From Branchiostoma floridae (Eukaryota > Chordata > Leptocardii > Amphioxiformes > Branchiostomatidae): a DNA stretch of 64,000 nt. A model generated the notes under the pieces. It had not been told where the DNA came from. It ran no database searches and saw only the letters and a program-made list of their open reading frames with translations. Within the stretch, counting starts at the first letter, position 1, and each line of letters starts with the position of its first letter. Positions 12,482 through 42,709 of this stretch are shown here, in pieces. The translations under genes were made by a program, and so were the position numbers. Location of the stretch: positions 2,508,591-2,572,590 of the forward strand of contig NC_049983.1 in NCBI RefSeq assembly GCF_000003815.2, given 5' to 3'.

Positions 12482-14060
12482 TATGTCAAAGCACTTACAC
12501 TACGAATTGAACGTTTACTCCCTTTCCTAATACACGAAGAAAAAACAGGATTTGTTAAACAGAGATATATAGGGACAAACATCAGGCGTATTTATGACAC
12601 AATAGATTATTACGATAAAAAGAAGGAAGCGGGATTGTTGATGTTTCTGGACTTCAAAAAAGCTTATGATAGTATCGAACACTCCTTCATACTAAAAGTA
12701 CTAGAAACTGTAAACTTTGGACACAATATGATCAAATGGGTTAAATTGCTATACACTGATATAACAAGCTGTGTGCTTAATAATGGCTATATATCTCCAT
12801 GGTTTAGTGTTCATAGAGTTGTAAGGCAGGGGGATCCACTGTCATCTAGCTTGTTTATGATCTGTATTGAAATGTTAGCTTCAGCAGTTAGAGCAGATAT
12901 AAACATAAAAGGTTTACAAGTGTATGGAAGAATACAAAAACTTTCAATGTACGCAGACGACATGACATCACTACTACTAGATATACCATCTGCACTGAAC
13001 CTGTTAGAAACGGTGAACCTCTTTAAGGATTGTAGTGGTCTTGATCTAAATTATGGAAAAACTGAAGCTATGTGGATAGGCTCAAACAAAGGTAGACAAG
13101 ATAAGCCACTCCCTATCCGTTGGCCTGACGGTTCCATTAAAGCACTGGGCGCGCACTTTGACCATGACAAACATAGATCTTATAAAGAAGACCTTGATAA
13201 GAATTATACAAAAATGGTACAAGCGTGCAGCATATGGAAACAACGAAACTTGACCTTGATTGGTCGGATATTGATTGTGAAAACCATCGGCATCTCTAAG
13301 TTGATCTATATTTGTTCAGTCATGCATGTCCCTCCCCAATTTGTGAAACAAGTAAACGAATACATATTCAAGTATATCTGGCGAGAGAAACCTCCAAAAG
13401 TAAAAATGAAAACTCTGATTGGCAAAAAATGTCAAGGTGGACTTAAAATGATCGATTTTAATGTAATGAACAAGGCCTTAAAAGCCAAATGGATTAAAAG
13501 ATTTGTCATGGACCCATCAAAAGAAAAAAAGCACTGTTTGCAAGATGGGGAGGCTTCTTGTTGTTCCGATGCAATTACGCTACTTCTCAGTTAAATCTTA
13601 ACGACATGCCCCCATTTTACAAAGATGTTTTAGTTGCATGGGAAGAAGTGATGGAATATGAACCCAAAACACACAAATATGTTCGCAAGTTTTGTGGAAT
13701 AATAGATTTATTTTAGTAAAGAATGCACCAATATATTACAATTATCTATCTGAACGATTTGTTGTACGAGGATGGATCTTTTCTTACAAACAAAGACCTA
13801 CACAATTTATATGGTTTTGACCATGGATTCAAGACAAATAATGATTTTCAATTCTATAAAAGCGGCAATACCAAAAAATTGGAAAGATAATATTAAAAAG
13901 AATGGGAAAAAGTGCACCTCTAAAAATATCATTGAATACACGGAGAGAATCCATCCCCTCACAACAACATGTAAACAGAAAAATAAAATCGAATTTAAGG
14001 CTGCCAGGTATAATAGCTTTCCTCTATCGGCCTGGAAGTGCCTTCCAATTTATATATAGT
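12482..14060 (+). pseudogene. L1/Tx1-type LINE reverse transcriptase fragment
   Basis: The frame opens at 12482 (TGFVKQRYIGTNIR, an RT motif 1 region) and continues to a stop at 13594. It contains motif A FLDFKKAYDS, the QGDPLSSSLF block (motif B), and the catalytic YADD box (MYADDM). Later blocks LIGRILIVKT and YIWREKPPK match the L1/Tx1-style thumb region. The RT core is continuous but nothing upstream (endonuclease) remains. After 13594 the frame breaks repeatedly (DMPPFYKDVLVAWEE, then YNYLSERFVVRGW in another frame), so the copy is dead. It ends close to a (GAT)-rich tract and a gap. Confidence 0.85.
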
Positions 14061-20982: not shown

Positions 20983-23890
20983 CAACGAGCTAAGACTCTC
21001 TCAACTGACATTTCATGTCTTAATGTACTATATCTAAACGCCGGCAGTGTCAAGTCAGTTAGAAAGAAATACAACAAACTCGCTCGCTTTCAAAATCTTG
21101 TTGCTACTGTCCAGCCTGACATCATATCTGTGACTGAAACCTGGCTAACCCCGTGTGTTGCCGACCAGGAGCTTCTGCCCCAGGACTACACCGTTCATCG
21201 GAAAGACAGAAGTGTGACCAAGCCTGGAATGACAGGTGGTGGTGTAATGTTGGCTGTTAAATCTAATATTCTCTCTCAGAAAAGAGAGGACCTTGAGCCC
21301 ATGGACGAGGTTCTTATTTGTGACATTCATCCCACAAATCATCAAAAAATTGTACTCATTGTGTATTACAGGCCACCGAGTGGTGACTTGTCTGTCTTTA
21401 ATGCTAATCTGAGCTCTATTCTTAGCTGTGTCTCCAAGGAGTACAGCCAGGTAGTACTGATGGGTGATCTTAACTGCCCAAACATAGATTGGTCTAAAGG
21501 AGGAAGCCACTCGGAACATGAGGGTCGCCTATGTGATTTACTAAATGACTACGCTCTTACTCAGATAAATAATGTCATCTCCAACAGTCATGGTCATTTG
21601 CTAGATGTAGTGTTGACTAACATACCTGACAAATGTTTAGAAATCGAACAGGTGACATCAGAGTATCCTACTGACCATGCTATATTACAGTTTGGTTTGA
21701 TCGTCAATAGGAAGATCAAAAGGCATGAAGATAAACGATATGTTTATAATTATAAAAGAGGTAACTTTAATAGGTTAAGGTTAGATCTAGAAAGAAAACT
21801 ACACAATATCAACAATGATGTTAATCTTGACAATATCTGGGAGAGGTGGATTTTCGAAGTTACCGAATCTGTTGAGCTTTGTGTTCCCAAAATGTGTGTT
21901 AAACGATCATCTTCATTACCTTGGTTCGACGGTGAAGTCAGACATGCGCGCAACAAAAATAAGACGGCATGGCGATTAGCCAAACGAACTAACAGTCCTT
22001 CACATTGGAGCAAGTTTAGAAAACTCAGAAACGACCTTCAAAGACTCATTAAGACAAAGTACAACTCGTTTCTGAACAATCTTGGCTCGCTAGTACAGAC
22101 GAACCCGAAAAGGTTCTGGTCTTTTTTTAGATCTAAAACCAAATCCAAATGCCTTCCGGCCGTCTTGAATTCAGCTAGCGCCGTAGCAAGCTCCGCTATA
22201 GAGAAGGCTGACATGTTTAACGATTACTTTCATTCAGTCTTCACTTTATCTAATGATACCCTTTGTCTGCCTGAAATCGCTGTTTTCGAACATCCATGTC
22301 TAGGAAATATTGTATTTTCAATTGAAGAAGTCCAAAATGTACTGTCTAGACTCGATTGCTCAAAGGCTATTGGTCCAGATGGACTTTCTCCTACCTTATT
22401 TCGAGAGTGCGCACATGTGATCGCTCCTCACCTGACTGCATTGTTTAACAGAAGTTTGAACCAAGGCTGGGTTCCTGCGCAGTGGAAGGATGCAAATATT
22501 TGTCCTGTCTTTAAAAAAGGCCGGAAAGATTTAGTAGAAAATTACCGCCCAATTTCTCTTCTCAGTATTGTTGGAAAGATAATGGAAAGGTGTTTGTTTA
22601 ATCGTATCTTTCCTCATTTAAAGCACTTGATCTATCCGTTACAACACGGTTTCATCAAGGGCAGATCATCATCGACACAGCTCCTTGAAATTTACCATGA
22701 AATTGGCGGGATTTTAGATCGAGGTGGCCAAGTAGACATTATATATTTGGATTTTTCCAAGGCATTTGACTGCGTTTCTCACCAGCTGTTAGTCCATAAG
22801 CTCAAAATGCATGGTATTCATTCTAATTTACTTTCCTGGTTCCATAGTTATCTTTCATGTAGGAGGCAACGTGTAATGGTCGAGGGTATGTGTTCGGATT
22901 GGCTCCCAGTAGTATCGGGAGTGCCCCAAGGGTCAATTTTAGGTCCCCTCCTTTTCTTATTATATATCAACGATCTTCCATCCGTAGTAAGCAACAAAAT
23001 GGGCCTTTACGCTGACGACTCCAAATGCTACAAACATGTATCTACTGTTTTAGATTGTGTATCACTCCAGAGAGATATTGATTGCATGTACGATTGGAGT
23101 AATACTTGGCAAATGAATTTTAATCCTGACAAATGTAAAATTCTCAGGATAAGCAGATCTAGAAATCCTATTACTTTTACGTACAAAATGAATGACACGG
23201 TCCTCGAGTCTGTTCCTGAATTTACCGACTTAGGGGTATTAGCTACGTGGAATTTAACTTTCGATTCTCATGTACATAATATCACTTCGAGAGCAAATTC
23301 AGCTCTCGGCTTTTTAAAAAGATCTGTAGGTTTCAATGCCCCTGTAAATGTAAAAAAAAATGCTATATCTCACTTTAGTCAGAAGCAGACTTGAGTAATG
23401 CTCTGTCGTTTGGTCACCCTATACCCACAACCTCATTTCCTCAGTCGAAAAAGTTCAAAGACGTGCCTCCAAGTATATTCTTAATGATTACACAGCAGAC
23501 TACAAGACGAGATTAATACATTGTTCACTATTACCTCTGTCCTACCGACGAGAAATACTTGATCTATGTTTTTTATATAAGTGCTTACTAGGACTTTATG
23601 ATATTAATATTGACAACTTTCTAAATCTCCCACATCCCCTTTTAAGAGCACATTCACAAGCTAAACTTATCCCTGGTAAATGTCACACTACAAACTTTCA
23701 GTACTCCTATTTTAACAGAATCGTCTACATATGGAACTCCTTACCACCTGAAATTAGAAAACTTCGGCTAAATCCAACATTCTCAACAAATCGTTTTAAG
23801 CAGTCCGTTATTGATCATTACTTCTCTCTTTTGGCCACACATTTTGATGTCCATCTAATAAGCACTTGGACCCATTGTTCCAAGTGCTGA
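20983..23890 (+). pseudogene. LINE ORF2: APE endonuclease plus reverse transcriptase, two lesions
   Basis: The open frame starts after a TAG at 20980-20982 and has no early ATG, so the ORF is probably reached by reinitiation or readthrough from ORF1. Endonuclease motifs run from VLYLNAGSVKSV through TETWLT, MGDLNCPNIDW and YPTDHA. RT motifs include GPDGLSP, YRPISLLS, DFSKAFDCVSH, SGVPQGSILGPLLFLLYIND and the catalytic YADD. The frame ends early at 23394 because of a shift, probably in the A9 run at 23352-23360. In the restored frame a TAA at 23396-23398 replaces an expected Tyr codon, after which the C-terminal domain stays open to 23890. With only these two late lesions the copy looks young. 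Confidence 0.88.
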
Positions 23891-24522: not shown

Positions 24523-27500
24523 CTAAATATCAAAAGCCCTCAGCATATCTTGTAATTGCTGCTTATACTTCGTCGCTCTCTCATGATCACCTATTTTGGT
24601 GCATGCTAATTGCAAGTGGTAAAGTGTCTTAGCAAACCCTGGATGTGCCGTGTTGTCTCCATAAATTGTTTTCCTCATCGTTAATGACTGTTCGCAGTAA
24701 CTGATGGCTTTCTTGTAATCACCAAGATCACACCAAGATGATCCAAGATTGTTTAGTGATGATAAAATATCCGGATGTGCCGTGTTGTTTCCATAAATAG
24801 TTTTTCCCATAGTCAATGACTGTTCGTAGTAACATATAGCTTTCCTGGGATCACCGAGATCACTCCAAGACGATCCAAGGCTGTTTAGTGACCTGACGAT
24901 GCTCGGATGTGCCGTATTGTCTCCATAGATAGTTTTCCTCATTGTTAATGACTGTTCGTAGTGACCAATAGCTTTCCTGTGATCCCCGAGTTCACTCCAA
25001 GACAACCCCAGGTTATAAAGTGACGTGGCAATGTCCGGATGTGTCATGTCTCCATAGATAGATTTCATCATCGATAACGACTGTTCGTAGTAGCCTATAG
25101 CTTTCATTTGATCACCAAGTTGAGTCCAAGACGATCCAAGGTTGTTTAGTGAGGCGGCAATGTCCGGATGTGCATTGTTGTCTCCATAGATCGATGTTTT
25201 TATGGTTAATGATTGTTCGTAGTAGCTAATAGCTTTCTTGTGATCGCCGATTTCACTCCAATAAGAGCCAAGGTTGTTTAGTGAGGAAGCAATGTCCGGA
25301 TGTCTATTACTGTCTCCGTAGATCGCTTCCCTCATAGTTAATGACTGTTCGTAGTAGCTGAGAGCTTTTGTGTGATCTCCGAGTTCTCTCCAAGAAGTTC
25401 CAAGATTATCTAGTGATTCGGCAATGTCTGGATGATCCGTGTTTTCTCCATAGATAGTTTTCTGCATCGTTAACGCCTGCTCGTAATAGGTGATAGATTT
25501 TTCTTGATCCCCGAGTTCACTCCAAGACGACCCAACGTTTTGAAGTGATGAGGCAATGTCCGGATGTGCCTTGTTTTCTCCATAGATAGCTTTTTGCATC
25601 TTTAACGCCTGTTCGTAGTAGTTGATTGCTTTCTTGTCATCACCAAGATTACTCCAAGATGTTCCAATGTTGTTTAGTGACGCAGCAATTTCCGGATGTG
25701 CTGTGTTGTCCCCGTAGATAGTTTTCTGCATCGTTAGTGACTGCATTTGGTAGTTAAGAGCTTTCTTGTCATCACCGAGATCACTCCAAGACGTTGCGAT
25801 GCTGTTTAGTGATGCGGCAATGTCTGGGTGAGCCGTGTTGTCTCCATAGATAATTCTTCTCATCGACAGTGACTGTTCTTTGCAGCTTATAGCTTTCTTG
25901 TAATCACCGAGGTCACCCCAAGACGACCCAAGGTTGTTTAATGATGTGGCAATGTCCGGATGTGCTGTGTTTTCTCCATAGACAGTTTTTCTCATCGATA
26001 ATGACTCTTCCTTGTAGCTTATAGCTTTCTTGTGATCACCAAGGTCACTCCAAGATGATCCAAGGTTGTTTAATGATGCGGCAATGTCCCGATGTGCCGT
26101 ATTGTCTCCATATACTGTTTTCTGCATTGTTAATGACTGTTCGTAATAGCTGATTGCCTTTCGTTGATCTCCAAGTTCATTCCAAGAATGCCCAAGGTTG
26201 TGAAGTGACTTGGCAATGTCCTGATGAGCCGTGTTCTCTCCATGGATAGTAGTTTCCATTCTTAATGCCTGTTCGTGGTAGTCGATAGCTTTCCTGTTAT
26301 CACCAAGATGACCCCAAGCCGATCCAATGTTGTTTAATGAGGCAGCAGTCCCAGGATGTGCCATGTTGACTCCATTAATAGTTTCCCTTAACTTTAATGC
26401 CTGTATGTGGTAGCTGAGAGCTTTCTTGTGATCACCGAGGTCACTCCAAGACGTACCAATGTTGTTTAGTGTCTTTGCTATTACAGGATGTGCCGTGTTG
26501 TCTCCATAGATGATTTTCGTCATATTTAATGCTTGTTCGTAGTAGCTAATAGCTTTCTTCTGATCACTGAGTTTACTCCAAGACGCTCCCAGGTTGTAAA
26601 GTGACTTAGCAATGTCTGGATGTGCCGTGTTGCTTCCATACATAGCTTTTTGTATCGTTAGTAACTGTTTGTAGTAGCTGAGAGCTTTCTTGTGATAACC
26701 AAGTTCACTCCAAGCTGCAACAAGGTTGTTTAACGTCTGGACAACTTCTGGATCCGCCATGTTGTCTCCATATATAGTTTTCTGCATCGTTAATGATTGT
26801 TCGTAGCAGCTAAGAGCTTTCTCTTGATCCCCGAGTTCACTCCAAGACGATCCAAGGTTGTCCAGTGACGCGACAATGCCTGGGTGTGCTGTGTTATCTC
26901 CATAGAGGGTTTTCTGCATAGCTAATGACTGTTCGTAGTAGCTGATAGCTTTCTTGTCATCGCTGAGTTCACCCCAAAACCATCCCAGATTGTGAAGTGA
27001 CTTGGCGATATCAGGATGTGGCGTGTTTTCTCCATATATACTTTTACGTACGCTAAGTGACTCTTCAAAGAGCCTAACTCCTGTTTTACTATCGTCAAAG
27101 AAGACCCAGAGGGTTCCCAATTCGTCAATTATATCTGAACGTTTGATCATATTGCCACCGGCATCTGTTAATGCCGATTCCAGATGGTGCTTGGCTCTAT
27201 TGTACAGAAATAGGTTTGTAGCTATTCGACCTCTACATTCATGGGATGTATCTAAGATTGGCGTTGTCATTTCATTTTTCGCTTGGCTCTGCACAATGCC
27301 TGGTATATATTTCTTCAAAGGGATAGCCCTGCAGTAGTATCTAAACAGAACTTGGACGTCCGGAATGTGGAATACTGCACTCAGGGTAGTTTCAGATACC
27401 TCTTGCGGTTTTGACTGGTATTTCATTTGAGTTAGAGGCGACATAATGTCTTGTTGCCCACCGTTGTTTAAATATGCTCTTAACCGGAGCTCTGCCGAGA

Positions 27501-28742
27501 TGCTGGTTAGTACTGTAAGGTGGATGGCATTTTCTTCATTTATCATGTCCGTTTTCTTTAACTCATCTATCACACTCCATGTGCTAGCGAGGGTGATCTG
27601 ACGGCACAAAGCTAGTGCTTCAATGGCTAAGCCTGGAAAACGATATATGTCTTTCTTGACATTCAGCAACTGCCCGGTTGGCTCGATGCTTGGAAGCTGC
27701 TCCCTGATCTCCCTCAAGATTTGTACAGCAGACAAACGGGACAGAGAACGCGAGAGTAGATCACTCGTGGTGATTCTTTTGAGTTTTTCCATATACTCGG
27801 TCACGAGGGCATCTTCTCCTGTTAGGAGAACAACCCGTCTGAGGATGTCGGACAGGTGATACCCTTCTGCCACAGAAACGTCTTGCCGCTGAAACTCTGC
27901 CATTTTGGCAGGTGTCTGGATAAGGCTAACGGGAGGCTTGGTCTTGGTCTGGTCTCTTCCAAATGGAGTCTTACTAGCCCATGGCATGAAGCCGTCAAAG
28001 GCAAATCCACGTGGTGTAACGGAGTCAAAGAACCAGTCTGTCTCTGGAAAATGGTTAAGTGACGGGATGGCCATGGCAGGGAGGATTGTCTCTCCGAGGT
28101 TGATGACTTTCAGGTGAAGGTAGTGTGTAAGGTTTATGAAGTATTGCCGCGTGTCTTCATTGTCCTTACCGTCTTCAATCAAAATTGCGAACTCCAAATC
28201 AGAGTAGGGTGTAACCAGTTCTGTTGCCTGTGAGCCTAACCCGATGTAGGCGTACTTACACGGAGGAGGACCAAGTGTGAAGATACATTCATCAACAAGT
28301 TCCTTGATAAACATCTGTCTATCCTTGGCGATGTTCTTGAATAAAGCCTTGACTGCTTCAGCTCTCTCAGACTCGACTGTTATCATGACTGGGTCTTCTT
28401 CGCCATATTTGTACGGATTATGTTGTTGGTTAATGGTGTCTAGTTGTGACTTAGCACGCGTACGCATTTCTTGAAGTCGCTTCTTCTGACGTATGGCCGA
28501 ATCAGAAGGAACAGGTTTTGTTTCCACATTTGCCGTGTAATTGAGAAACAATTGCTCTATTTCCTGCAGTCTTTTTGTTACACTTTGTTTATTTTCGTCT
28601 GTTCTAGCCATTCCTGCGTTAAATAGAGCTGCTGCCTGTGTAAATTTTCTACCTTCTTTTGACTTCTTGCCACGCTTGATGTAGACGTCACCCAGTCTGT
28701 ACAGACAGTCAGCCTCTTTACATCGATCGGGTTTGTTAGGAT
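24523..28742 (-). CDS. nucleotidyltransferase-TPR protein, exon 3 (main exon)
   Basis: The acceptor CACACAG precedes 28742 and the exon is entered in phase 1 (GAT CCT AAC). The frame also runs slightly further upstream, but only from a TTG, so no true start is there. It encodes about residues 265-1670. First comes a helical module ending near 313 (LGDVYIKRG). A nucleotidyltransferase domain follows at roughly 380-560, with GLGS at about 432-435 and TPYSDLEF at about 442-449, the G-S-x(n)-D-x-E signature of GlnD/DUF294-type enzymes. Both motif carboxylates (D and E) are present, so activity is possible. A helical linker follows. From about 833 to 1663 there are 18 full 44-residue kinesin-light-chain-like TPRs (consensus YGDNTAHPDIAASLNNLG) plus a degenerate last one. 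The protein appears cytosolic: no signal peptide or membrane segment. The substrate is unknown. Confidence 0.9.
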
Positions 28743-30959
28743 CTGTGTGCGTATCAAACAAATATCGTTTTATTACGTAGACTTTCTTCTATCAATGATA
28801 CAGTGGAAGCCGCTTAATTGCACACCCAATAGAGTTAATTCCAGTTGTGGCGGCCATGTTGGATTTCCGGGGTCATCCGGGGTCATGGCACCAGAACGAG
28901 ACTGCAGGTGGTACAAGCTGGGCATTCTACTATATAGGCTGTATTGCAGACATAAGTATGCCATCTTCGGGAGTGCATTTCACCCCTCTAAGGTTAACAA
29001 CTTGACAATATATGCCTGTTATCTATAGAAAATATTGTTTGGGACATTTGAATTTGATTTTGGTGATATTTTTTATTAATTTTTCACTTTTTTTGACGGC
29101 TGACCTGAGAACAATTAGTGTCAGTGTTTATATCATCCATGAGTGCTTTGTATTGGTAACTGTGATAAAAAAACTGATATAGTAGGTTTACTATTGGGAT
29201 TAAACCCTACAAATACGCAAAATATGGGAATGACATCTTTGCGGGTAGAAATTTAAAAGACATTTGGCAGTTGTTCTGATGATTTATTGATGCCAAGATC
29301 CATTCTGCAAACTACGCTCTATGGGAAAGTCATGCCGGGTGTGCTCCTTTACTTTCTTCCCAATTCATAACATAACCCTACACAAAAAGTCCACATGTTG
29401 GGTCCATAAAATTGTGGGATGAAATGTAGCAGATTTTTTTCTGTTGGGGATTTTTCAATACCAACGTGGAGAAAAACGTAAATTTCTGTCACATTTCCAC
29501 CCAAACTGATCTGAAACTGGCATGAAGCCTGGTTTTTAGAGTAATGTGAGGGTCAACTCTAGCCTGAGTATCATCCTAGTTGGTTACAGAGGCTCTCATA
29601 CTCACCCCTCTGGTTTGTGAGGGGTCAGTATGGGAGCCCCAATAAGCTACCTAGGATGACACTCAGGCTACAATCCCTCCTCCGCTGGCAGTTATAATCA
29701 AAGTTATGTTTTGTTTTCTACCTTGGCATTGAAAAATTGCAAAAACATCAGTAAAAAAGGCCGACATTTGCTTAAGAGCAAATACAGCATATTTCAGCCA
29801 TACCCCTTCCCACGCAACATTGGACTGTTCCAAATCACCCCTGCGCAAAAATGGAACATCCTCTTAACAGTACATTATCCCCCAAAGTTGACTGGTATTG
29901 TGAATTGACTCCAGGTAAAAACAGAGCTTGCTTCTATTTTTCAGAAAATGACAATAATCACACCTTCAATTCAGAAAATTTTCATCATGACTGAAAATTG
30001 TTGAATGACTTCATGTAATGTCATTAACAATTTTCAGTACGATAACTAGGTGTAAGTTTAAAAAAGTATAAGCTCCTTGTGATGTGGGTACATTTATTAT
30101 TGCAATGAACTTTTTTTATTCAAGTAGGGCATACGATTTAATAATTATCAAGCAGGTGCAGGTACTGTAGGAGCGTTTGTTTTCTTCAAGCTGTAAAACT
30201 GTTAAACTGTTTTACTTTGTATGCAATCAACCATCGAGCCTATTCTTATTTTAGTTTAACAACTTCCTGCCAGACCCGGAAGATACGATTGAACCTTGTT
30301 CGAGGATTTATTTTCGTCTGTCTGGTCAGTCTGTTCATACCCTGGCGCTGAGAGTGTTTTATTGGGCTGAAACTCTGGCAGTTTAAAGTTACTTACAATT
30401 TAAATGTTCAAAGTTTATGCCAAACAACAACAGCACTAGGAAATGTGGCCACTATAGACAGGTGGTCACTATAGAGAAAATGCTGATCTATTGACTAGGA
30501 GCCATACGTTACACATGATTTCAGTACACTGATCATTAATCATATAAACATTGCACAGGTAAGCCAATTGTTTAGATGTACAATTAAGTTCAAATAATTC
30601 TGAAGAGAAATATTGATGAGAAAATAATCATTCTCGCCACTGTCTAACTTATAATTACGTATCAAAACTAAACCGCAGATTTTCTAACTAACGCACCTTT
30701 CGCCGACTTCATCATAGGACCGCCGGCTATCAATCAAACACGGCTGTTGATTAGACTTAGAGTTTCAAACAGTCATGTGCTGTGTGCCAGTTGACAGCGA
30801 ACTTCATGCTACGTGATGTTTTACATTGCTTGGACCTTCTTTCCTACAGCGGTGCTTCTACAAAATATTTAGACTGTAACACTGAGTTTTATAGAATAGA
30901 ATTTGACGCAGAACAGCGTTTTTTGCTGGGTATTTTTTTTTAAACATGTCCGTGGGAAT

Positions 30960-32340
30960 ATCAGCGAGGCGGCGACGTAGGGATATCAGACCGTCAACAA
31001 AAGTCGCACGGCGGCTAACGGCGCAGCGAAGATACTAGCGCTAGCCTATAAATAAGCGCTTCAACTAAGGATGGCAACCCGTACAATATTTTTGTATACT
31101 GTTGAGCTAAGTAAAGTTTGTTGTTTATGAGGTTTTAGTTGTCTTTGAAGCTTTGACCCGAAATATTTTAAAGTCAAACTGCTGAAGAGAAGTAAGTGAC
31201 TGCTACGATTATCGTAGATATGGCCCTAAAAAAACTGATAAAAGAAGCCTTCTCAATAGCCTAAAATGCAAGAGCTTCCGGGGGGGCTTCGCCCACCTGG
31301 GTCCCCCCCCACAGTGGCCCTGCCCCTGGACCCCGCCAGGGACATTCGGCGGCCCCCGGACCCCTGTCCGACGCTTTGAAAAAATCCTGGCGAGAAGTCT
31401 GTACGGCCTGAGTCTTCAAGTTAACGTATTGTGTGGTCCCGCTTATGAATATTAATTAGCCTTCGCTTTCCTCTTCGCTGATTGGCTGAACCATTAATTG
31501 AATTAACTCTTCCTGCCGGCTAGACGCAGGTGCAGATGTCGGCTCTGTGGGGTGAACGTCCGAAAGGTCACGGCATGGAGAACGAAAAAAAACCAATTTC
31601 CCCTAAAAAAAGTGCTGTAATTAAGCCTTTTACAGTACTTTATGCCAAAAATTTTACTTGGATCATTTTACCAACTATATTATGCCTATCTATACCAAAT
31701 GTTACTCATACCAGGGTACAGGGGTGCAAAATATACCGTTATAAGACCGTCAACAACAGTCGCACGGAGCTAACAGCGCAGCGAAAATACCATCGCTAGC
31801 GTTTCAACCTCGGATAACAAGTTATAAGTACTGTTGAACTCAGTAACGTTAAAGTTTGTTTTTAGTTGCCTTTGACGGTTTGACCTGAAACAGTGTTACG
31901 CTAAACTCCTGAAGAGAAGTTAAGTGACTGCTGCGATTATCATAGATATGCCCCTAAGAACTGATACAATATAAAGCCTTCTGAATAGTCTAAAATGCGA
32001 GAGCCTTAGGCGGGCTTTGGCGGGAACACTGCTATATACGGGATCATGAGGCCCCGCTTATGAATATTAATTAGCCTTTGGCCTCCTCTTCGCTGATTGG
32101 CTAGGTCTTTGATTCAATTAACTCTCCGGCTGACGCGCACAGGTGTGGCTCTGTGCGGGGTCACGGAAGGTCACGTCAGGAGGCCAAAAGAAAACAAATT
32201 TCCCCTCAGAAAAGTGCCAAAATTAATCATTTTAAAGTTGTTTATGTCAAAAATTTTACTTGAATCTTGTTACCAAGTATCTAATGCCTATCTATACCAA
32301 ATTTGAAGTCATTTAATTGTAATACCAGGGTACAGGAGCC
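30960..32340 (+). repeat. imperfect direct duplication, period ~740 bp
   Basis: Blocks AGACCGTCAACAA(A/C)AGTCGCACGG, CTGAAGAGAAGT(T)AAGTGACTGCT, GCTTATGAATATTAATTAGC and TATGCC(A/T)A... followed by CTATCTATACCAAAT occur in the same order in 30980-31720 and 31738-32335. It lies inside the pogo-like composite. Confidence 0.65.
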
Positions 32341-32840
32341 AAAAGTGTCCTTTTTTGGTCAAAAATTGGCCAAAAATCGCAAAAATAAGCATTTTGTTGC
32401 ACTGTACACCAAAAGTGTTATTGAATTTATATGAAGGGATTATCAAGGCACATCTGTGTCAAATTTCAGCTCATTCGGTTGCAATACCAAGGTACAGGAG
32501 CCAAAAGTGTCCTTTTTTGGTCAAAAATTGGTCAAAAAATCGCAAAAATAAGCATTTTGTTGTACTGTACACCAAAAGTGTTCTTAAATTTATATGGGGG
32601 CATTATCAAGGCACATCTCTGTCAAATTTCAGCTCATTTGGTTGTAATACCAGGGTACAGGGGCCAAAAGTGTCCTTTTTTGGTCAAAAATTGGTCAAAA
32701 AATCGCAAAAATAAGTATTTTGTTGTACTGTACACCAAAACTGATATTGAATCTATATGGGGGACTTATCAAGGCACATCAGTGCCAAATTTCAGCTCAT
32801 TCGGTTATAATACCAGGGTACAGGGGGCCCAAATATACAG
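32321..32840 (+). repeat. 163-bp tandem repeat, ~3.2 copies
   Basis: Unit start AATACCAGGGTACAGG recurs at 32321, 32483, 32646 and 32809 (spacings 162, 163, 163). Units share GTGTCCTTTTTTGGTCAAAA and CAAATTTCAGCTCATTCGGT. Overlapping open frames are period artefacts. Confidence 0.85.
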
Positions 32841-34505
32841 TTTTGGTCTTAAGATGACCAAAAAACCTTAATAAAATCATTTAAGAGACAGATATGGAAA
32901 AAATGAAAAAAACACCCGAGGGTATTGGCCCACTCTACCCTTGTGCCAAATTTCAAGTCATTCGGTTGAGGAACAACGGAGATACCGTGTTCTGAAGATT
33001 TGACAGGAGAAAGAAAGAAAGAAAGAAACATTACGAATACAATATATTTCACCATACCTATGGTATGGCTGAAATATAACAATCTGCTACATTTCATCCC
33101 ACAATGTTATGCAACATGTGAAATTTTTGTTACGGGGTATGTTGTTTAAACTAAAATAAAACAATAAAAACAGTCAGATAAATTGGGAAACAAGTAGAGG
33201 AGCACACCCGGTACATGCACCGCCTTCCCCATTGAGTGCCGCAGGATTTTCCCATATAGAGTGTAGTTTGCAGAACGGTTGTTGGCATCGAGAAATCATC
33301 AGACGAACAGCCAAATGTCTTCTAAATTTCTACCCAAAGTCTGTCAGTCCGATATTTCCATGTTTTTGTAGGGTTTAATCACAGTTACCGATACACTGCG
33401 CGCATGGAGGATATAAACACTGACATGAATTGTTGTCAGGTCACCCGTCAAAAAATGTGAAAAATTAATAAAAAATATCACCAAAATCAAATTCAAATTT
33501 CCCAAACAATATTTTCTATAGATAACAGGCATATATTGTCAAGTTGTTAACCTTAGAGGGGTGAAATGCACTCCCGAAGATGGCATACTTATGTCTGCAA
33601 TACAGCCTATATAGTAGAATGCCCAGCTGGCACCACCTGCAGTCTCGTTCTGGTGCCATGACCCCGGATGACCCCAGAAATCCAACATGGCCGCCACAAC
33701 TGGAATTAACTCTATTTGCCAGCGAAGTTTGTGCAATTTACGGCGTGTGCGATAATGCGGAGTTGGTCATTTGGACTGCATCACCACGGGCGGAGGGGCC
33801 GAGAGGTGGTATGGGAGGTAGTACAACGCACAGTTTATTTAGTGTTATAGTAGTGCTGTACCTGCTGTGCTCCAGACGTCATATACATGTCTTCACGAAA
33901 CATCGTACTGCAATGCACTTGAAATCGAAACTAAGTTACTGTATAAGTTATGTAGCTTCATGATCACGAAACTAAAGCACTGCAGCGCCGAAGGCGAGTG
34001 TTATGTCCGTCTGTAGGCCCCGAGTCGCTGTGTTGTTTCCGACTGGCTGCCAAGAACATAAAGCAGTCAGTATTTCCCCGCGACCCTAATTACGTAATTA
34101 GACATTTTTATTATTGAGTATGTCTTAGCAAGTTGTCTGCCAAATCGTAATGCCGGCTTTGACAACCTCTTGCGGGCGGGCGTCTCTTCAAGGTGCCAAC
34201 CCCACAATATCGCCTTCTTTTGATCCTAATATTTCATACATGTTGTCAGTATAGCGACTTCACAAAGGCCGTTATCGGCTTATTTGTACCGTGTCTGACG
34301 ATTTTTAGCATGCATTTTCAGTCAATTTGCCGACGATATTTGACAAATTTTCGTGCAATTATCCGGCGTTGGTGATTTTTTGCCGTGCAGATAAGCGAAG
34401 TCACTAACAATGGAGTGAATGGGAGACGGTTTGGGATTTGGGGATTCCGTGCAATTACCCGAAGTGTGCGTTTATCCGAAGTGCAATTAACTGGCTTCCA
34501 CTGTA

Positions 34506-35453
34506 ATATGGTGTAAATCGGATTCCTTGGGCTTATTCAGGAAAAAAAAATTATCATTAAAGAAACTTTTGATGTAACTTAAATAAATATTTAATGGGTA
34601 TGGTAACATGTTCTTAACCACAATGTCAGTTAGCCGACGTCATTTTGCAGCAAGGCAAGTTGCTTCACAACAAGGCATAAGAAGTTTCGCAAGAAAGCAT
34701 AAGTCATTTCGCCATATTTGAATTTTATCATTCTAGATGTCGTAATAGCACTAGGAATCGTATTTCTAACATCACATATGCATTCAATGATGTACGCCAA
34801 TCAAACTATTACATGTTTTCTAGCTAATTTTCTAGTCACAATAACCTGATCCAGTCTATCGTAGCTTGGACACACTCGGGCCAGGATAGATAAAGATCTC
34901 TGCCGTCGAAGTTATCTTTCGCGTACGGTAAAATGTTTACGCAGTGCGGTTTTTAACGGCAGAAGTTTCATCCCGTCCGAGCCTGTCTATGTACAAGCCA
35001 CGATAGACCGTAATCAGCATTTTTATAATCCCGAAAACAGAAATCTCGGAAAAACCGTTGCGGTCATTTTGAGCCGTCAATGAATTAAGTTGGACTCTTT
35101 GTCCAGATTTTAAACGATGTTTGCACGCATGTCATGCCGCACGGATAGCGGGAGGGTGTAATTGATACCGGTGTAAACAACACTTATAGTATTCAAGGTC
35201 ATCAACAAAAACGCCAGTAGCTTCGTTACATATTACATGCCCCAACAAAGTGTCAGCATAGATGTACTATCCAGAAAATTATTTATAATGGTAAAAAAAT
35301 ACTATAATTTCGCCTGATTCAAGGTAGTTAGGGGGAAAAGGCCAGAAGGCACTGTTTTACCTGCAATGACCGCAGATGACCGCAGATAGAACATCGTTGA
35401 ACAAGGTTCAAATTCGGCTAGACATGTAGTCTGGTGGCAGAGACAGATAAGCG
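34506..35453. other. intronic sequence, nothing recognised
   Basis: Unique AT-rich sequence between the two large elements of intron 2. No exon, repeat or element is seen. Confidence 0.4.
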
Positions 35454-36076
35454 TGCAATGCGGTCCATACAATGTTTTTTTGCTGTTTCTATACCTCTGA
35501 GGTGTGCTCTATCAGAATCTGGAGTATGCCACTCTGTCATCCTTGGGGAATCCGCACAATATGCAAATTAAGGCGGCCATTAAGGAAATTCTTGTGTTCG
35601 TCAATATCTCGGTAACCACACATAGTATCAAATTGATTTTGGTGTCTAGCCCCATGTTTTGAGGGGTAAAGAATCAGATTAAGCCATTTTAGTAATGTTC
35701 ACACCACTATTTTGGCTAAATATGCATATAATATGCAAATTAGGACGGCTATTACGGGAAATCTTGCTTTCGTCAATATCTCGGTAACCACGCATGGTAT
35801 CAAATTGATTTTTGTGTCTATCCCCATGTTTTGAGGGGTAAAGAATCAGATTAAGCCATTTTAGTAATGTTCACACCACTATTTTGGCTAAATATGCATA
35901 TAATATGCAAATTAGGACGGCTATTACGGGAAATCTTGCTTTCGTCAATATCTCGGTAACCACACATGGTATCAAATTCACATTGGTGTCTAGTCCATGT
36001 TTTCTAGGGGCTAAAGAATCTGATGAAGCCATTTTCGCATTTAAGGAGGTAGACTAAGCCATGTCAGTATTCAGAT

Positions 36077-36500
36077 NNNNNNNNNNNNNNNNNNNNNNNN
36101 NNNNNNNNNNNNNNNNNNNNNNNNNNNNNNNNNNNNNNNNNNNNNNNNNNNNNNNNNNNNNNNNNNNNNNNNNNNNNNNNNNNNNNNNNNNNNNNNNNNN
36201 NNNNNNNNNNNNNNNNNNNNNNNNNNNNNNNNNNNNNNNNNNNNNNNNNNNNNNNNNNNNNNNNNNNNNNNNNNNNNNNNNNNNNNNNNNNNNNNNNNNN
36301 NNNNNNNNNNNNNNNNNNNNNNNNNNNNNNNNNNNNNNNNNNNNNNNNNNNNNNNNNNNNNNNNNNNNNNNNNNNNNNNNNNNNNNNNNNNNNNNNNNNN
36401 NNNNNNNNNNNNNNNNNNNNNNNNNNNNNNNNNNNNNNNNNNNNNNNNNNNNNNNNNNNNNNNNNNNNNNNNNNNNNNNNNNNNNNNNNNNNNNNNNNNN
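36077..36500. other. assembly gap (424 N)
   Basis: N run inside the foldback element, next to the minisatellite that probably caused it. Confidence 0.97.
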
Positions 36501-37160
36501 TCCCTGAAGTGTTGTACTCCCAGTATTGGCCGCACCCCCAGTAGTGTTCGTACCCCCAGTATTGGCCGCATCCCCAGTAGTGTCCATACCCCCAGTATTG
36601 GTCGCATCCCCAGTATAGTGTCCGTACCCCCAGTATTGGCCGCATCCCCAGTAGTGTCCGTACCCCCAGTATTGGTCGCATCCCCAGTATAGTGTCCGTA
36701 CCCCCAGTATTGGTCGCATCCCCAGTATAGTGTCCGTACCCCCAGTATTGGCCGCATCCCCAGTAGTGTCCGTACCCCCAGTATTGGCCGCATCCCCAGT
36801 AGTGTCCGTACCCCCAGTATTGGTCGCATCCCCAGTAGTGTCCGTACCCCAGTATTGGCCGCATCCCCAGTAGTGTTGGTACCCCCAGGATTGGCCGTAC
36901 CACCTGTAGTGTCCGTACCCCCAGTAGTGTCTGTACCCCCAGTAGTGTCCGTACCCCCAGTAGTGTCCGTACCCCCATTTGTGTCCGATACCCCCAGTAG
37001 TGTCCAATACCCCCAGTAGTGTCCGTACCACCTGTAGTGTCCGTACCCCCAGTAGTGTCCGTACCCCCAGTAGTGTCCGTACCCCCAGTAGTGTCTGTGT
37101 CCCCATTTGTGTCCATTACCCCCAGTAGTGCCCGTACCACCTGTAGTGTCTGTATCCCAG
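36501..37160. repeat. 18/36-bp GC-rich minisatellite
   Basis: Basic unit CCCCCAGTAGTGTCCGTA (18 bp). In 36520-36870 it alternates with a variant CCCCAGTATTGGCCGCAT to form a 36-bp higher-order unit. Because 18 and 36 are multiples of three, all minus frames stay open and spell Thr/Gly/Tyr-rich repeats. These are not a gene. Confidence 0.92.
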
Positions 37161-39001
37161 CGGTGTCCATACAGTGAGTTGGGCCATCGGGCCAAATTGA
37201 TTTTTTTCAGGTCCACTTTGGACCGGTCCAAGAAGAAAACCCGTTTTTGTACAGGTACACTATGCACCCCTAGCCCTACCAAGTAGTGCCCGGGCTGTAA
37301 CATATAGTAGTGTCAGCACCACCTGTTATCGTCAGTTTTCACTGTAGTGTCCGTACCCCTGGTAGTGCCTGTACCTCCTGAAATGTCCATTCATCCTGTC
37401 AAGCAGAGACCATACCCGATGTAGACGTATGTATCACCAGTAGTGCCCATAACCCCAGAAGTGTTTATACCCCGGGGCCCTCTGTTTTCAGTTACCCCTG
37501 GGCCAGTAGTGTCCGTTCCCTCAGTCTGTACCCCAGTAGTGTGGTTGTCCTACGGATACACCGGCACCTTGACAGCAATGTGTGGATGCTATACAGCTCG
37601 CTTGCCATGTACATTTTTGTGGATATCACAGAGAATCACTGACTGCCAGAATGGGCACACCTGACAGGTTGATGTCTGTTACAATGTTTGTGAAAGTTAC
37701 TTGTTGGAGGACTGAGTCAAACCAGAAATGGCAACATATATAAGCATAATTAAAGTGGATGCACCCACTCTGATAGACACTGAAGCTGAACATTTTCAAC
37801 AAATATGTGTGATCAATACTGACAGCATTGTTTGATTCTTTGCACCTCAAAACATGGGGATGGACGCCAAATTTATTTTGATACCATGTTTGGTTACTGA
37901 GATAATAAGTAAAACAAGATTTTCCGTAATGACCGCCTTATTTACATATTATAAGCCTATTCACCACAAAATATTGAAGTAATCATTACTGAAATGGCTT
38001 AATCTGATTCTTTACCCCTCAAAACATGGGGATGGACACCAAAATCAATTTGATACAATGAGTGGTTACTGAGATATTAACGAAAACAAGATTTTCCGTA
38101 ATAACCGCCTTAATTTGCATATTATATGCTATTCAGCACAAAATATTGGTGTAATTATTACTGAAATGGCTTAATCTGATTCTTTACCCCTCAAAACATG
38201 GGGCTAGACACCAAAATCAATTTGATACCATGCGTGGTTACCGAGATATCGACAAAAGCAAGATTTTCCGTAATAACCGCCTTCATTTGCATATTATATG
38301 CACATGTAGCCAAAATAGTGGTGTGATCATTACTAAAATGGCTAAATATGATTCTTTACCCTTCAAAACATGCGGATAGACACCAAAATCAATTTGATAC
38401 CATGTGTGGTTACTGAGATATTGAGAAAAGTAAGATTTTCCGTAATAACCGCCTTAATTTGCATATTGTATGCATATTTAGCCAAAATAGTGGTGTGATC
38501 ATAACTAAAATGGCTTAATCTGATTCTTTACCCCTCAAAACATGGGGCTAGACACCAAAATCAATTTGATACTATGTGTGGTTACCGAGATATTGACGAA
38601 AACAAGAATTCCCTTAATGGCCGCCTTAATTTGCATATTGTGCGGATTCCCCAAGGATGACAGAGTGGCATACTGCAGATTCTGATAGAGCACACCTCAG
38701 AGGTATAGAAACAGCAAAAAAACATTGTATGGACCGCATTGCAAGGTTACCCCAAAATCTGGGGTTTGGCAACCGGACTAATGGGGGTTTTGAGCCCGAA
38801 TTTGACCACCGTGATGAATAAGGGATTACTAAGATTGCATTGTCCAGATTACACTACATGGTGGCGGCGGCATTTTTTTTTTCTACTCGCGCCGATTTTG
38901 ACGGAGGTGTTCAAAATAGAATGGGTTTGGCGGGGGTGCTAATGGTGTTCGGTTCATTCAGCAGGAAGCTTGTTAAGAAATGTGAAAATTGAATGAGGTA
39001 C

Positions 39002-39092
39002 CATGAATCAGTCTGAGAGCAGACGCAAAGTTCTGTTCTGCCTCGTCCAGCTTCCCATCTGCCAGTGCGCGGTCTCCTGTACTCAGGTACTC
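39002..39092 (-). CDS. nucleotidyltransferase-TPR protein, exon 2 (short exon)
   Basis: 91 bases encoding EYLSTGDRALADGKLDEAEQ and ten further residues ending in RLIH, a canonical TPR helix pair. The donor CATG|GTACCT leaves one base, and joining to 28742 gives a GAT codon and an uninterrupted frame. The exon start at 39092 uses a GAG acceptor that keeps phase 0 with exon 1. A better-looking CAG acceptor at 39103-39105 would start the exon at 39102 in phase 2 and would require one more unseen exon. The peptide matches the TPR nature of exon 3 and both neighbouring phases fit, so assignment to this gene is strong. Confidence 0.75.
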
Positions 39093-39139
39093 CTCGTAAG
39101 ATCTGAAGAACGAGGATGTTACATGTCTCTATAAGATAT

Positions 39140-39450
39140 TAGAGCACATATTTCTGTCCTCAGCCAATCAGGGGTGAAGATTTTGTTGCTTTGAAATCCA
39201 CATAGTATGGTCAGAAGTTAGTTAGAGCACCTCTGTCCCGTGAGGCAGAGGTGCTCTAACTAACTAAAATCAAATTATACTGAGGGCGCCCACTTTCAAC
39301 ATGACATTTCAATGGAGGGTCGTTTTATCTAGATTAGCAGGAATACATGAGACCACACAAAAATCATACAGGAAAATTTTGTATCCAAAACAACAAGCAG
39401 TACAGTAAAACTACATGGACAGTTATAGCATTCTAACTCACTGTTGAAAG
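39140..39450 (+). repeat. dispersed repeat with a conserved hairpin (copy 2)
   Basis: Homologous to 17609-18000, with the same 18-bp-stem hairpin (39217-39264) and loop changes only. Confidence 0.65.
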
Positions 39451-39469
39451 TCTACATATCAGAGAGGAT

Positions 39470-41230
39470 GAAACTATGGGCTTTCTCCTAACTGTAATAA
39501 ACACATTTTCAGTCAATTTTTTTAATGTTTTCTATCACTAGAGCATTTATTCCGTATTTTTAAATCAACAGATCTTAACAAATGGGTGCCGGGCTTAATT
39601 ACTATAAAGAGACCCCATATGTATCAGAGAGACCATGATCACATGAGCCGGAAGCTATAGGCTTTCTCCTTACTGGAAAAACAAAACAATTTTCAGCCAA
39701 TTTCATAATGTGTTCTTAGACTATCACTAGACGAACCATTATTTGATTCCCAATCATTAGTTCTTAACAGCTTAAGTTAATTCCTCAAAAGAGCCCCCTT
39801 TAAATATTAGAGAGACTACGGTCACGAGGGGTCTTTTTAGATGAATTAAGCTTATTTGTTAAAAAATGATGATTAAGAATGATAGAAAACATGCTCTAGT
39901 GATAGAAAATATCTAAACTTTCATTGAAAATTTACTTCTCACAGTTAGAAAAACGCCCATAGTTTCAACCTCTTGTGACCCTAGTCTCTCTGACCCCTAA
40001 GATGAGGGGCCTCTTTTAGGTAATTAAGTGAATGTGTTAAGAACAGATGATTAAGAATCACAGAATGGTTGCTCTGGTGATAGAAAACATTATAAAAATT
40101 TACTGAATATTTGATTTCTCTAGAGAAGAAAGCCTTTACTTTCAGCCTGTCGTGACCGTAGACTCTTTGAACCTTCGCCTATGGCACGCTCGTACCCAGC
40201 GCCGCGAAGAAGCCCCCATGCGGCCAAAAAGTGAATTGCATAAAAGACTCGCACACGCATATTCAGTGGAACAAGACAATTTTTGCATTTTGCGACTTGC
40301 AGTCGCAAAATGCCTTCTATCCATAGTAGTCGCCGTTGTGATTGGGTGATGGAGTGATGTTGAGATGAACGGACCTGTTCAATCCATGCCAAACATTTCT
40401 ATACCTGTTAAAACAGGCATTTCTTCAACATGTTCGCACTGGCGCAGTGGTTAAAGTTTACGCATTCTAAACCAATGCACCCGGTTCGAATCCGGGGAGG
40501 TAGATTTTTTTTTTCTTTTTTACACCATTAAAATACTAATTTTTACATCCATTTGGCCACACCAATTTATTTCTTTGGTTAACGAATTCGCCACTTCGTT
40601 TTTTTGCCGAATAGAAATAAAAATCAAAAAATAAAAACTTAAAAATGCCCCGCAACAGAGCTCACTCAAAAACAGGCAGTGTAGTGAAATTTGCTGCAGT
40701 TCACGCAAATTTTAACAGGTGGCGTCTAGATCTAGATTCAGGCACATATGTGAATCTCTCCATGCGCCAATATCAGGTTTAGTTACTCTGTTCTATTTAT
40801 ATGACATTCTAATAACTAGAAAAAAACGTTCACACACGCAAACATTGGCAAAATGCCAGCTTTTTTAAAAGCACTTGTTTACGACACTGTGAAGGAGCGT
40901 GTGCCTATGGGCTCTCATTACAGTAATTCAGCCTAGTCGTTAAAGAATAATGATAGATTATCACAGATTGGGTGCTCTAGTGGTAGGAAACATTTACATA
41001 ACATTATAAAAATTGACTTAAAATTTTGTTATTAAGCAGTTAGGAGAAAGCACATAGTTTCGGCCTCTCGTGACCGTAGACTCTCTGATACCTATGGGGT
41101 CTCTTTAGAGCAATTAAGCTCATTTGTTGAAAAACGGTGATTGAGAATCACAGAATTGGCACTGTAGTGATAAGAAACATTAAAAAATTGATTGGAAATT
41201 TTTACCAGTTAGGAAAAGCCCCCCACACGT
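39470..41230. repeat. inverted and direct ~180-bp units
   Basis: 39470-39830 carries the unit in one orientation (GGCTTTCTCCTTACTGG, TGTTTTCTATCACTAGAGCA). 39830-40140 and 40960-41220 carry it in the other (AGAAAGCAC, TCTCGTGACCGTAGACTCTC, GTGATAGAAAACAT). Non-coding. Confidence 0.55.
40431..40504 (+). repeat. tRNA-like sequence (pseudo-tRNA or SINE head)
   Basis: The A box TGGCGCAGTGGTTA and B box GGTTCGAATCC match Pol III consensus. An anticodon arm GCATT-CTAAACC-AATGC and a perfect T arm CCCGG-TTCGAAT-CCGGG can form. The 5' and 3' ends do not pair into a 7-bp acceptor stem and the base after the anticodon (AAA) is a C, so a functional tRNA is unlikely. A T-run follows at 40506. Confidence 0.55.
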
Positions 41231-42007
41231 ATAATGGTACAGTCGCGCCTGTCGTGCCCGGGAACGAGGGCCAGGCCTGTGGTGACCATATCGCTGGCTC
41301 CTGGAGCGCTCCTTACCCAGATGCAATTTTCATGGAGATAAATATATAGCAATAACTTTCATTTTTTTGGAGATAATAAAGTGGATACAAAATAGACATC
41401 TACATACTCTAGAACTGTCGAAATTAAGCTAAATCCGAATCCATTCTTGTCCAGGATTCATGCACACACTAGATCCCGTATATTATACGTAGTGCTACTG
41501 ACAAAGCAAACATTACTATTCAGGTGCTTACATGTCAGGACGTTGACCTTTGGAGTCACCGATGACGACAGTGCTGTGTGAGGTCATCGGAAAGTCCCGT
41601 AGCGAGTGATCCTGTCGTTGACTTACTCTGTGCTTTGGACTCTTTATTAGTGACAAGCAAAAGGAAAAACATAAATGTCTATTTTGTTAGCAAACCACAT
41701 GGCAAGAGGATTAACGGTTTCATTCGACATATATTTAAGTCAGTTTAAAATTATTTTGGGGTGTACGTTGGGTTTATTTTATTCATAAAAGCATAAAAAA
41801 ATTCGCTTCTGAATAATTGACTTAAGACAACATTGATTTGATATCTATAGCAATGTCCATAGGTCATTAAGCAATTGGTCACACTGTAAGTATTACTTAC
41901 TATTATAACAAATATATTAGGTTTCTTATTTTGAACAGCTGAACGCGTTACATTCACACTTTTTTGCTTCATCACATACATATCCAGCATAAAATGGAAA
42001 TGCTTAC

Positions 42008-42709
42008 CTTATCTCCATCCGCCTTCCTTTCTTGTCTCATCCTGGCAGTATACAGTAGGCGGTGAATGAGTGAGGCTCTTCCCTGACTCCCTTCACACCG
42101 CACCAGTGCAGTGTTGTACAGAGCAGTGGCCTTAGTCAAGCATGTCGTGTCTTTAGTTTCTATTCCTCTTTTCAGGTACACGTCACCGAGACTCTTGATC
42201 GCTTCCGCCTCTAGCACATTGTCATCGTTTACGACCCCTTCTACCACTAACTTGGTATATTCAATCAGTAAAGACTCCTTGTTGCCATCAACAGTCAATC
42301 TTTGTTCTAGGTGTAGGAACACCTCTGCTACTTTAGCAAGCGAAGACATTCTTTTGGCGTTAGTAAGGGGCTCGTAACTACTTGACGCGGTTGATCGCTT
42401 CCCTAGCCGTAATTTTTCTGCATAGTGGTAACGATGTTCTAGACTGTCTCCAACATCTGCGTCATTATACCGGAGCAGTGCGGTCCTGTACAACACCATG
42501 GCTCTGTCAAACCTCTCTGGATTCTTGTCGAGTTGCCCCTTTTCCAAGTTCACGTCACCCAGACTTTTAAGCACCTCCACTTCTGCATATCTATCCATGT
42601 TTTCCGTGGCGTCCAGCAGTGCACGGAGGTAGTCTGTCTCCGTACGCGCCAGTCCGAGTCTCTTTCTCTTGGCGTCCACCGCACGAAGTTTCTCACAGAC
42701 CCTCAACAT
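42008..42709 (-). CDS. nucleotidyltransferase-TPR protein, exon 1
   Basis: Begins at the first in-frame ATG (42709); the frame is open upstream only through non-ATG codons. It encodes 234 residues and ends at AAG|GTAAGC (phase 0). It contains two copies of a helical module, LKSLGDVNLEKG...ALLR at about 47-80 and IKSLGDVYLKRG...ALVR at about 171-204. The third copy of this module opens exon 3 (LYRLGDVYIKRG). This shared, distinctive module is the main reason for joining exons 9.9 and 13 kb apart. It could instead belong to a truncated paralogue, but splice phases allow one protein of about 1670 residues. The upstream region has no obvious TATA box. Confidence 0.75.

Follow-up and report, generated by a model that had tools for sequence, protein, structure and literature searches.

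A large amphioxus family of predicted DUF294-type nucleotidyltransferase–TPR proteins with relatives in intracellular bacteria

On its minus strand, a 64,000-nucleotide stretch of the Branchiostoma floridae (amphioxus) genome (the window: bases 2,508,591–2,572,590 of contig C5; genome of 513 Mb in 431 contigs) carries a gene predicted to join a nucleotidyltransferase (NTase) domain to a long array of tetratricopeptide repeats (TPRs), and the question that this locus raises is what such a protein would do in a chordate. The window gene, which a preliminary description had taken for a single odd case, is, judging from its sequence, one intact member of a very large family with at least 150 copies in the genome. 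As the role of these proteins we favour that of an active protein-modifying enzyme, AMPylase-like in its chemistry, that would be steered by a variable TPR array, a reading to which we give a probability of about 0.58; the immune setting that we propose for it is, taken by itself, weaker.

The NTase domain and its nearest relatives

Exon 3, the large last exon of the gene model given below, contains the following features:

28591..28713, minus strand: LGDVY module at the head of exon 3; bacterial relatives have a similar module at a similar distance before the NTase
27841..28359, minus strand: DUF294-type NTase domain, limits approximate (Pfam, and profile match to DrrA 6yx5)
28192..28236, minus strand: catalytic motif GSx10DxE (Gly 28236–28234, Ser 28233–28231, Asp 28200–28198, Glu 28194–28192)
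27994..27996, minus strand: candidate third acidic residue, the Asp of RGFAFDG
27361..27843, minus strand: helical domain after the NTase, DUF294_C-like, with a SISAELRLR motif, limits approximate
24560..27048, minus strand: TPR array of about 18 units, mostly of 44 residues and of kinesin-light-chain type (TPR_10/TPR_12), limits approximate

The gathering score of the Pfam family DUF294 (PF03445), 21 bits, is exceeded by both the trimmed domain (25.4 bits) and the whole of exon 3 (23.7 bits), and all 21 members of A1, an alignment of 21 amphioxus copies, match DUF294 at E ≤ 1 (best 9.4e-8). DUF294_C (PF10335) is matched at E ≤ 1 by 17 of the 21 (best 1.7e-4), the window's own copy not being among them, and passes its cut-off in the Chlamydiota copy L065 (26.3 against 22.5 bits); SidM_N is matched at E ≤ 1 by 19 of the 21. 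Pfam also finds 18 TPR_10 stretches in exon 3, which stops soon after the last TPR, bearing out the earlier claim of an NTase fused to about 18 TPRs in an animal. The residues G169, S170, D181, E183 and D249 (exon 3 numbering), the last being the candidate third acid, are invariant in a 13-row alignment of amphioxus and bacterial sequences.

When all solved structures were searched with a profile built from 24 domains of amphioxus and bacteria, the nearest was the AMPylase DrrA: chain 6yx5 matched at E = 5.2e-6 in two colinear stretches over the NTase and helical parts, the second of which is the helical domain, followed by DrrA 3nku (0.0042), the MNT antitoxin 7ae2 (0.35) and HI0073 (0.43), with nothing else at E ≤ 10. 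With a single sequence as query, the solved structures returned one match, at chance level. The GS loop, the acidic pair and the following helical domain of the DrrA/SidM AMPylase domain of Legionella (6yx5, 3nku) align in order with those of the amphioxus protein. The two differ in that the amphioxus motif, GSx10DxE, is not the G-x11-D-x-D of SidM/DrrA and so has DxE in place of DxD, in that TPRs follow instead, and in the below-cut-off SidM_N score of the window's copy; no guanine nucleotide exchange factor or lipid-binding domain is present among 25 of the 33 exon 3 Pfam families listed. The SidM/DrrA domain is an adenylyltransferase with the G-x11-D-x-D motif and a fold homologous to DNA polymerase β (pol β) (PMC12409994). 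Because DrrA is nearest in the profile search and its domain is an adenylyltransferase, protein AMPylation is our best single guess for the chemistry, despite the glutamate as second acid.

The preliminary description had assigned the domain to GlnD/DUF294-type enzymes with both carboxylates retained. The carboxylates are there, a third aspartate can be added to them and DUF294 is right, but GlnD proper is not: GlnD and the GS adenylyltransferase do resemble the amphioxus protein in having a pol β-type NTase with a helical domain behind it (PMC3710099), whereas HD and ACT are absent from the 15 families of the domain scan and from 25 of the 33 exon 3 families listed, a TPR array being present instead. 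MNT–HEPN modules are two-gene toxin–antitoxin pairs of prokaryotes and are not known to carry TPRs. They are similar to the amphioxus protein in combining an NTase with a HEPN-clan helical domain (PMC3710099), and the weak match to 7ae2 belongs here; in the same survey, DUF294_C is grouped with HEPN-type domains and aminoglycoside-NTase relatives are occasionally fused to TPRs.

Could the NTase instead, like OAS or cGAS, produce a small nucleotide second messenger once a ligand has been sensed by the TPRs? Membership of the pol β-type NTases and the sensor–effector layout would suit such a role, and large families of signalling NTases exist, but OAS, cGAS and CD-NTase chains are all missing from the four sequences that match the structure profile at E ≤ 10 (two DrrA chains, the MNT antitoxin and HI0073). 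PADLOC, as weak evidence, gives no match for the window domain, with weak PDC-S09 matches for the bacterial fragment L037. We consider second-messenger synthesis unlikely.

Gene structure and family

As first described, the gene consisted of a long minus-strand frame without an ATG start, a 30-codon exon (39002–39092) and a 234-codon exon (42008–42709), which were said to join with matching phases into about 1,670 residues. The long frame, which ends at 24523, indeed does not open with an ATG, and a splice-acceptor-like CACACAG at 28743 precedes its coding part. Comparison with paralogous loci gives four exons rather than three:

42008..42709, minus strand: exon 1, start ATG, 234 codons, two LGDVY-type (TPR-like) modules
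41532..41641, minus strand: mini-exon, 110 bases, SPKHRVSQRQDHSLRDFPMTSHSTVVIGDSKGQRPD plus two bases, phase 0 to phase 2; overlooked in the preliminary description
39002..39102, minus strand: exon 2, 101 bases encoding SYEEYLSTGDRALADGKLDEAEQNFASALRLIH, TPR hairpin-like by eye
24523..28742, minus strand: exon 3, single large exon with a third LGDVY module, the NTase, the helical domain, the TPR array and the stop

Joined, the four form an open frame of 1,710 residues, against 1,670 for the three of the earlier model, and we infer that the gene is transcribed in this form, the structure itself coming from comparison.

Exon 1 ends in AAG/GTAAGC (slash at the splice site) in phase 0. A search of its own genome with exon 1 gave at least 151 matches, and the start ATG is supported because most of the 150 listed align, by eye, from residue 1. 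Among the matches listed, 100 of 150 NTase copies are preceded within 15 kb by an exon-1 copy on their own strand, compared with a single NTase in a control with the NTase strands flipped, and the median distance from match start to match start in this pairing of listed copies is 3.1 kb; restricting the pairing to the stronger exon-1 rows gives 29 of 33, the figure of 100 of 150 taking all 150 rows listed. Same-strand exon-1 copies also lie downstream of 37 of the 150 listed NTases, as is expected of tandem clusters. Exon 1 (42709–42008) belongs to the same gene as exon 3, and its joining to the long frame thus stands.

Exon 2 has a homologue at 19 of 21 paralogous loci, always upstream of the NTase exon; it was not found at L009 and L011, both of which contain masked stretches. 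Its acceptor (AG/N at 39102 or the equivalent base) is present in 20 of 20 rows, the window included, and its donor GT lies at the expected base in 19 of the 20, with L029 having a same-phase GT six bases further on. The exon of the earlier model was therefore real, with a wrong start: 39092 is ruled out in favour of 39102, because the SYEE codons that precede 39092 are conserved and the acceptor AG at 39102 is shared. With this start exon 2 begins in phase 2, which does not match the phase-0 end of exon 1, so an additional exon is required between them. Such a block, the mini-exon, is conserved in 11 of 15 introns compared (the window's and ten paralogous ones), and in all 11 it is stop-free, follows a phase-0 AG and has a length of 2 modulo 3 (98–113 bases), with the donor GTAAG in 10 and GTCAG in one. 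A mini-exon start at 41632 was replaced by 41641, where a same-phase AG is common to all 11 introns.

The genome search with the NTase core found at least 150 copies (150 scored of 300 candidates; weakest listed E = 3.4e-64). Those listed lie on 17 of contigs C1–C19 and on 7 other contigs, and 148 of the 150 have no in-frame stop. We read 45 copies individually: 21 from long loci, the window's included, 20 short cores and 4 others selected by divergence or frame length. All 45 retain GSx10DxE, as they do the third aspartate (44 by regular expression; L012, which reads ALD, by eye); L009, in which masking leaves no detected NTase motif, is outside all counts of catalytic residues. The NTase core has a median ratio of non-synonymous to synonymous substitution rates (dN/dS) of 0.18 (181 usable of 210 pairs), with no pair above 0.5, and is under purifying selection. 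The A1 copies are near-invariant around the active site; full 44-residue TPR units number from 3 to 18 per copy across 21 copies, one of which has masked stretches.

These figures bear on two alternatives. Exons 1 and 3 might be separate genes, or the copies mostly pseudogenes or contamination, given that the gene spans 18 kb, that 50 of the 150 listed NTases have no exon-1 copy within 15 kb among the matches listed and that the TPRs of at least one copy, L023, are interrupted by a stop; against the conserved exon order, strand, splice sites and phase, and against the intact frames, the low dN/dS, the introns and the long contigs, we regard this as highly improbable. Alternatively, the NTase might be kept for binding: the protein would then be a scaffold or regulator whose TPR array is switched when a nucleotide binds, and transfer would be slight or absent. 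The glutamate at the second acid position would fit, as would the adaptor domain, an F-box, of the one full-length Neochlamydia relative scanned. The three acids and the GS loop are nevertheless kept in every one of the copies read and invariant between amphioxus and bacteria in the 13-row alignment, and we judge a binding-only role to be improbable, at odds of roughly one in five or six.

Three further observations concern individual members. L041 (G000:C1) is a divergent branch, 45% identical to the window's domain, in which the active site is kept and no clear canonical TPRs are seen behind it by eye. L009 (G000:C5:2577589-2579643, plus strand) is a further copy about 5 kb past the window's right end in the opposite orientation; it is 79% identical over query residues 253–938, has 3,591 masked bases and gave no NTase motif. 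Contig C174 (461 kb) holds 12 of the 150 listed exon-1 copies, all on one strand, and 2 of the 150 listed NTase rows, a difference that may lie in which matches are listed.

Bacterial relatives and origin

A scan of prokaryotes (one genome per species, 84,980 species, two exact peptide patterns) returned 40 stretches, 12 of which are relatives, in 11 loci and at 26–33% identity, from Amoebophilaceae, Cytophagales, Rickettsiaceae and other Alphaproteobacteria, Chlamydiae and one Gammaproteobacterium. Alignment A3 matches at 1e-10 in 15 of 116 genomes of Chlamydiota, the phylum of G005, and in 6 of 131 of the order of G002; seven of these genomes have from at least 8 to at least 17 matches each, some of the matches being two pieces of one gene. 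Relatives beyond these two groups come from other bacteria that are intracellular or uncultured. In the four bacterial proteins scanned for TPRs behind DUF294, these were strong in L030 and L034, sub-threshold in L031 and absent from the fragment L037; in L065, L066 and L067 the NTase continues into TPR-like repeats (by eye, and in L065 also by Pfam). An LGDxY-type module stands before the NTase in 3 of 12 bacterial frames by strict pattern and in more by eye, and its distance to SDLEF is 169 residues in two bacterial frames and 203 in one, compared with 163 in the window gene. L031 and L034, from a 1.4 Mb assembly titled Rickettsia typhi MAG, a title that may be a mislabel, are large proteins of NTase–TPR type. 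No match was found in phage records, and the five stretches of viral contigs that fit the pattern include no relative.

Among the bacterial copies compared, that nearest to the window's is L065 of genome G083 (45% identity over 307 residues). A plasmid search returned one record, Neochlamydia pS13, with 11 places, the best at the same coordinates as in G083. In the pS13 protein WP_052354594.1, Pfam recognises an F-box, DUF294 and TPRs. With blastp, residues 309–1694 of a 1,707-residue model (mini-exon start 41632) align to residues 98–1425 of this protein at 30% identity (575 bits, 1,410 columns). The alignment begins six residues into exon 3, whose first full residue is 303 of the model, so that what is shared is practically confined to exon 3. 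A search of G083, G039 and G156 for relatives of exon 1 gave none that convinces, only one weak partial match (E = 1.7e-5).

The layout of WP_052354594.1 suggests membership of NEX2, a Neochlamydia family of 50 proteins (Domman et al. 2014, PMC4209131). The majority of these have an F-box at the N-terminus, most contain DUF294 in the middle, and TPRs follow towards the C-terminus. The family has expanded within its lineage and is under purifying selection (dN/dS 0.29), and in the members tested a type III secretion signal proved functional in a heterologous assay. Judged by alignment and profile, exon 3 is homologous over almost its whole length to a chlamydial NEX2-type protein, and its domain to DUF294 and DrrA. 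The likeness extends to the order of the parts (LGDxY module, DUF294 NTase, helical domain, C-terminal TPRs) and to lineage-specific expansion under purifying selection; the NEX2-type layout of a mid-protein DUF294 with multiple C-terminal TPRs, homologous over its length, is found in the comparison with this one full-length Neochlamydia protein. In contrast, the bacterial N-terminus carries an F-box where amphioxus has exon 1, the mini-exon and exon 2, a Pfam scan covering exon 1 finding no family at E ≤ 1, and the bacterial proteins are proposed secreted effectors (PMC4209131) whereas the amphioxus ones are the host's own genes. The amphioxus family is thus a new animal branch of a known DUF294–TPR architecture. 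The arrangement had been called poorly described, which is untrue of the layout, known in Chlamydiae through NEX2, and true of the amphioxus family so far as the open literature goes, where no published description was recognised (most subscription papers and all preprints being outside this coverage).

All trees were unrooted and so do not give the direction of transfer. In a first tree of 26 rows, with fewer bacterial ones, the amphioxus copies were split: L041 grouped with the bacteria, and the long-branched L037 lay among the amphioxus rows. Once L065–L067 had been added and L018 and L020 omitted, with long rows kept, all 12 amphioxus rows grouped in one clade (98/99). In a later tree, for which L068 was added and L037, L040, L067, the second L035 frame and the amphioxus L010, L017, L021 and L027 were dropped, so that the longest branches were out, the amphioxus clade was recovered at 99/97 and grouped with Chlamydiota at 100/100, against the rickettsial and Bacteroidota copies.

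Because the whole shared part lies in one intronless exon behind small 5′ exons, the gene structure suggests that a bacterial gene entered the animal line, the reverse direction or an intermediate host also being possible. Tentatively, an amphioxus ancestor may have gained an intronless DUF294–TPR gene from a chlamydia-like symbiont (or shared one in the other direction), fused its own 5′ exons to it and amplified it to at least 150 copies with a near-unchanged core and varied TPR arrays, giving a germline-encoded repertoire of intracellular protein-nucleotidylating receptors. If this is true, the amphioxus repertoire was built from an enzyme layout that bacteria presumably turn against eukaryotic cells.

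The distribution of relatives also bears on whether this is an ordinary housekeeping family, acting in trafficking or at the cytoskeleton in the manner of kinesin light chain and without a role in conflict. Kinesin light chain is indeed the best match of the TPR start of the profile among natural solved proteins. A family of such size, dispersed over 17 of contigs C1–C19 and 7 others, with relatives that are patchy and often multi-copy in intracellular bacteria, would be hard to square with this role, which we hold to be rather improbable.

Proposed function

We suggest that the protein is probably intracellular and comprises a constant DUF294/DrrA-like NTase, then a helical domain, then a TPR array of variable length. 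The array would bind a particular protein partner, either a microbial product or a host protein attacked by microbes, and this binding would bring the partner to the NTase or would release (unlock) the NTase, which would attach a nucleotide, most likely AMP, to a side chain of the bound protein or of a partner. The size of the repertoire suggests that many targets would be recognised, most simply in intracellular defence. Two things make a sensor-plus-effector arrangement more plausible: the catalytic core is near-invariant and stands next to a TPR array of differing length, and those bacterial relatives that were tested carry a secretion signal. The same layout occurs in amoeba-dwelling bacteria and is presumed there to be directed at the host. 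Intracellular action, enzymatic activity, an AMPylated protein as product, the choice of target by the TPRs and a setting of host–microbe conflict are each proposed here on the grounds of sequence and comparison.

Several points weigh against a TPR-steered, AMPylase-like enzyme of this kind. The window's copy scores 18.8 bits for SidM_N, below the curated cut-off of 27, and its second acid is a glutamate where the DrrA motif has an aspartate. TPR units are 0.66 identical within a gene and 0.58 between genes, a modest difference that does not demonstrate selection for diversity. According to PMC4209131, only two NEX2 members are computationally predicted as secreted. As for the gene model, exon 2 and the mini-exon are predicted purely by comparison of loci, and the mini-exon block was undetected in 4 of the 15 introns compared (L011, L020, L024 and L028).

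Among known systems, human FICD is an AMPylase with a TPR domain and thus a case of the two joined in an animal, a possible working analogue; it differs in having a FIC fold, unrelated to the pol β-type NTase, and in being a single gene (PMC12409994). That source gives metazoans a single FIC protein and names SelO besides, and on our own reading of it the known animal protein AMPylases are few. In corals, also marine invertebrates, TPR arrays coupled to a single effector domain have likewise undergone large lineage-specific expansions, but their effector is the caspase-like CHAT (PMC12314368), whereas that of amphioxus is an NTase, with no CHAT domain among 25 of the 33 exon 3 Pfam families listed; the TRADD-N families are comparable expansions with another domain (PMC8195603). 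A chordate with at least 150 apparently intact NTase–TPR genes, homologous along most of their length to what has been proposed as an effector family in intracellular bacteria, would possess a large, unexplored and, for a chordate, unexpected enzyme repertoire at the host–microbe boundary, and would open to test whether an effector-type enzyme was turned into an animal receptor family and what its TPRs recognise.

Elsewhere in the window, an open frame of 362 codons at 60000–61088 (plus strand) has no Pfam match at E ≤ 0.01. Two RVT_1 open frames resembling retroelements without long terminal repeats (non-LTR) lie at 12635–13594 and 21130–23394 (both plus strand); the latter also has an endonuclease domain, and its end lies some 1.1 kb from that of the NTase–TPR gene, on the opposite strand.

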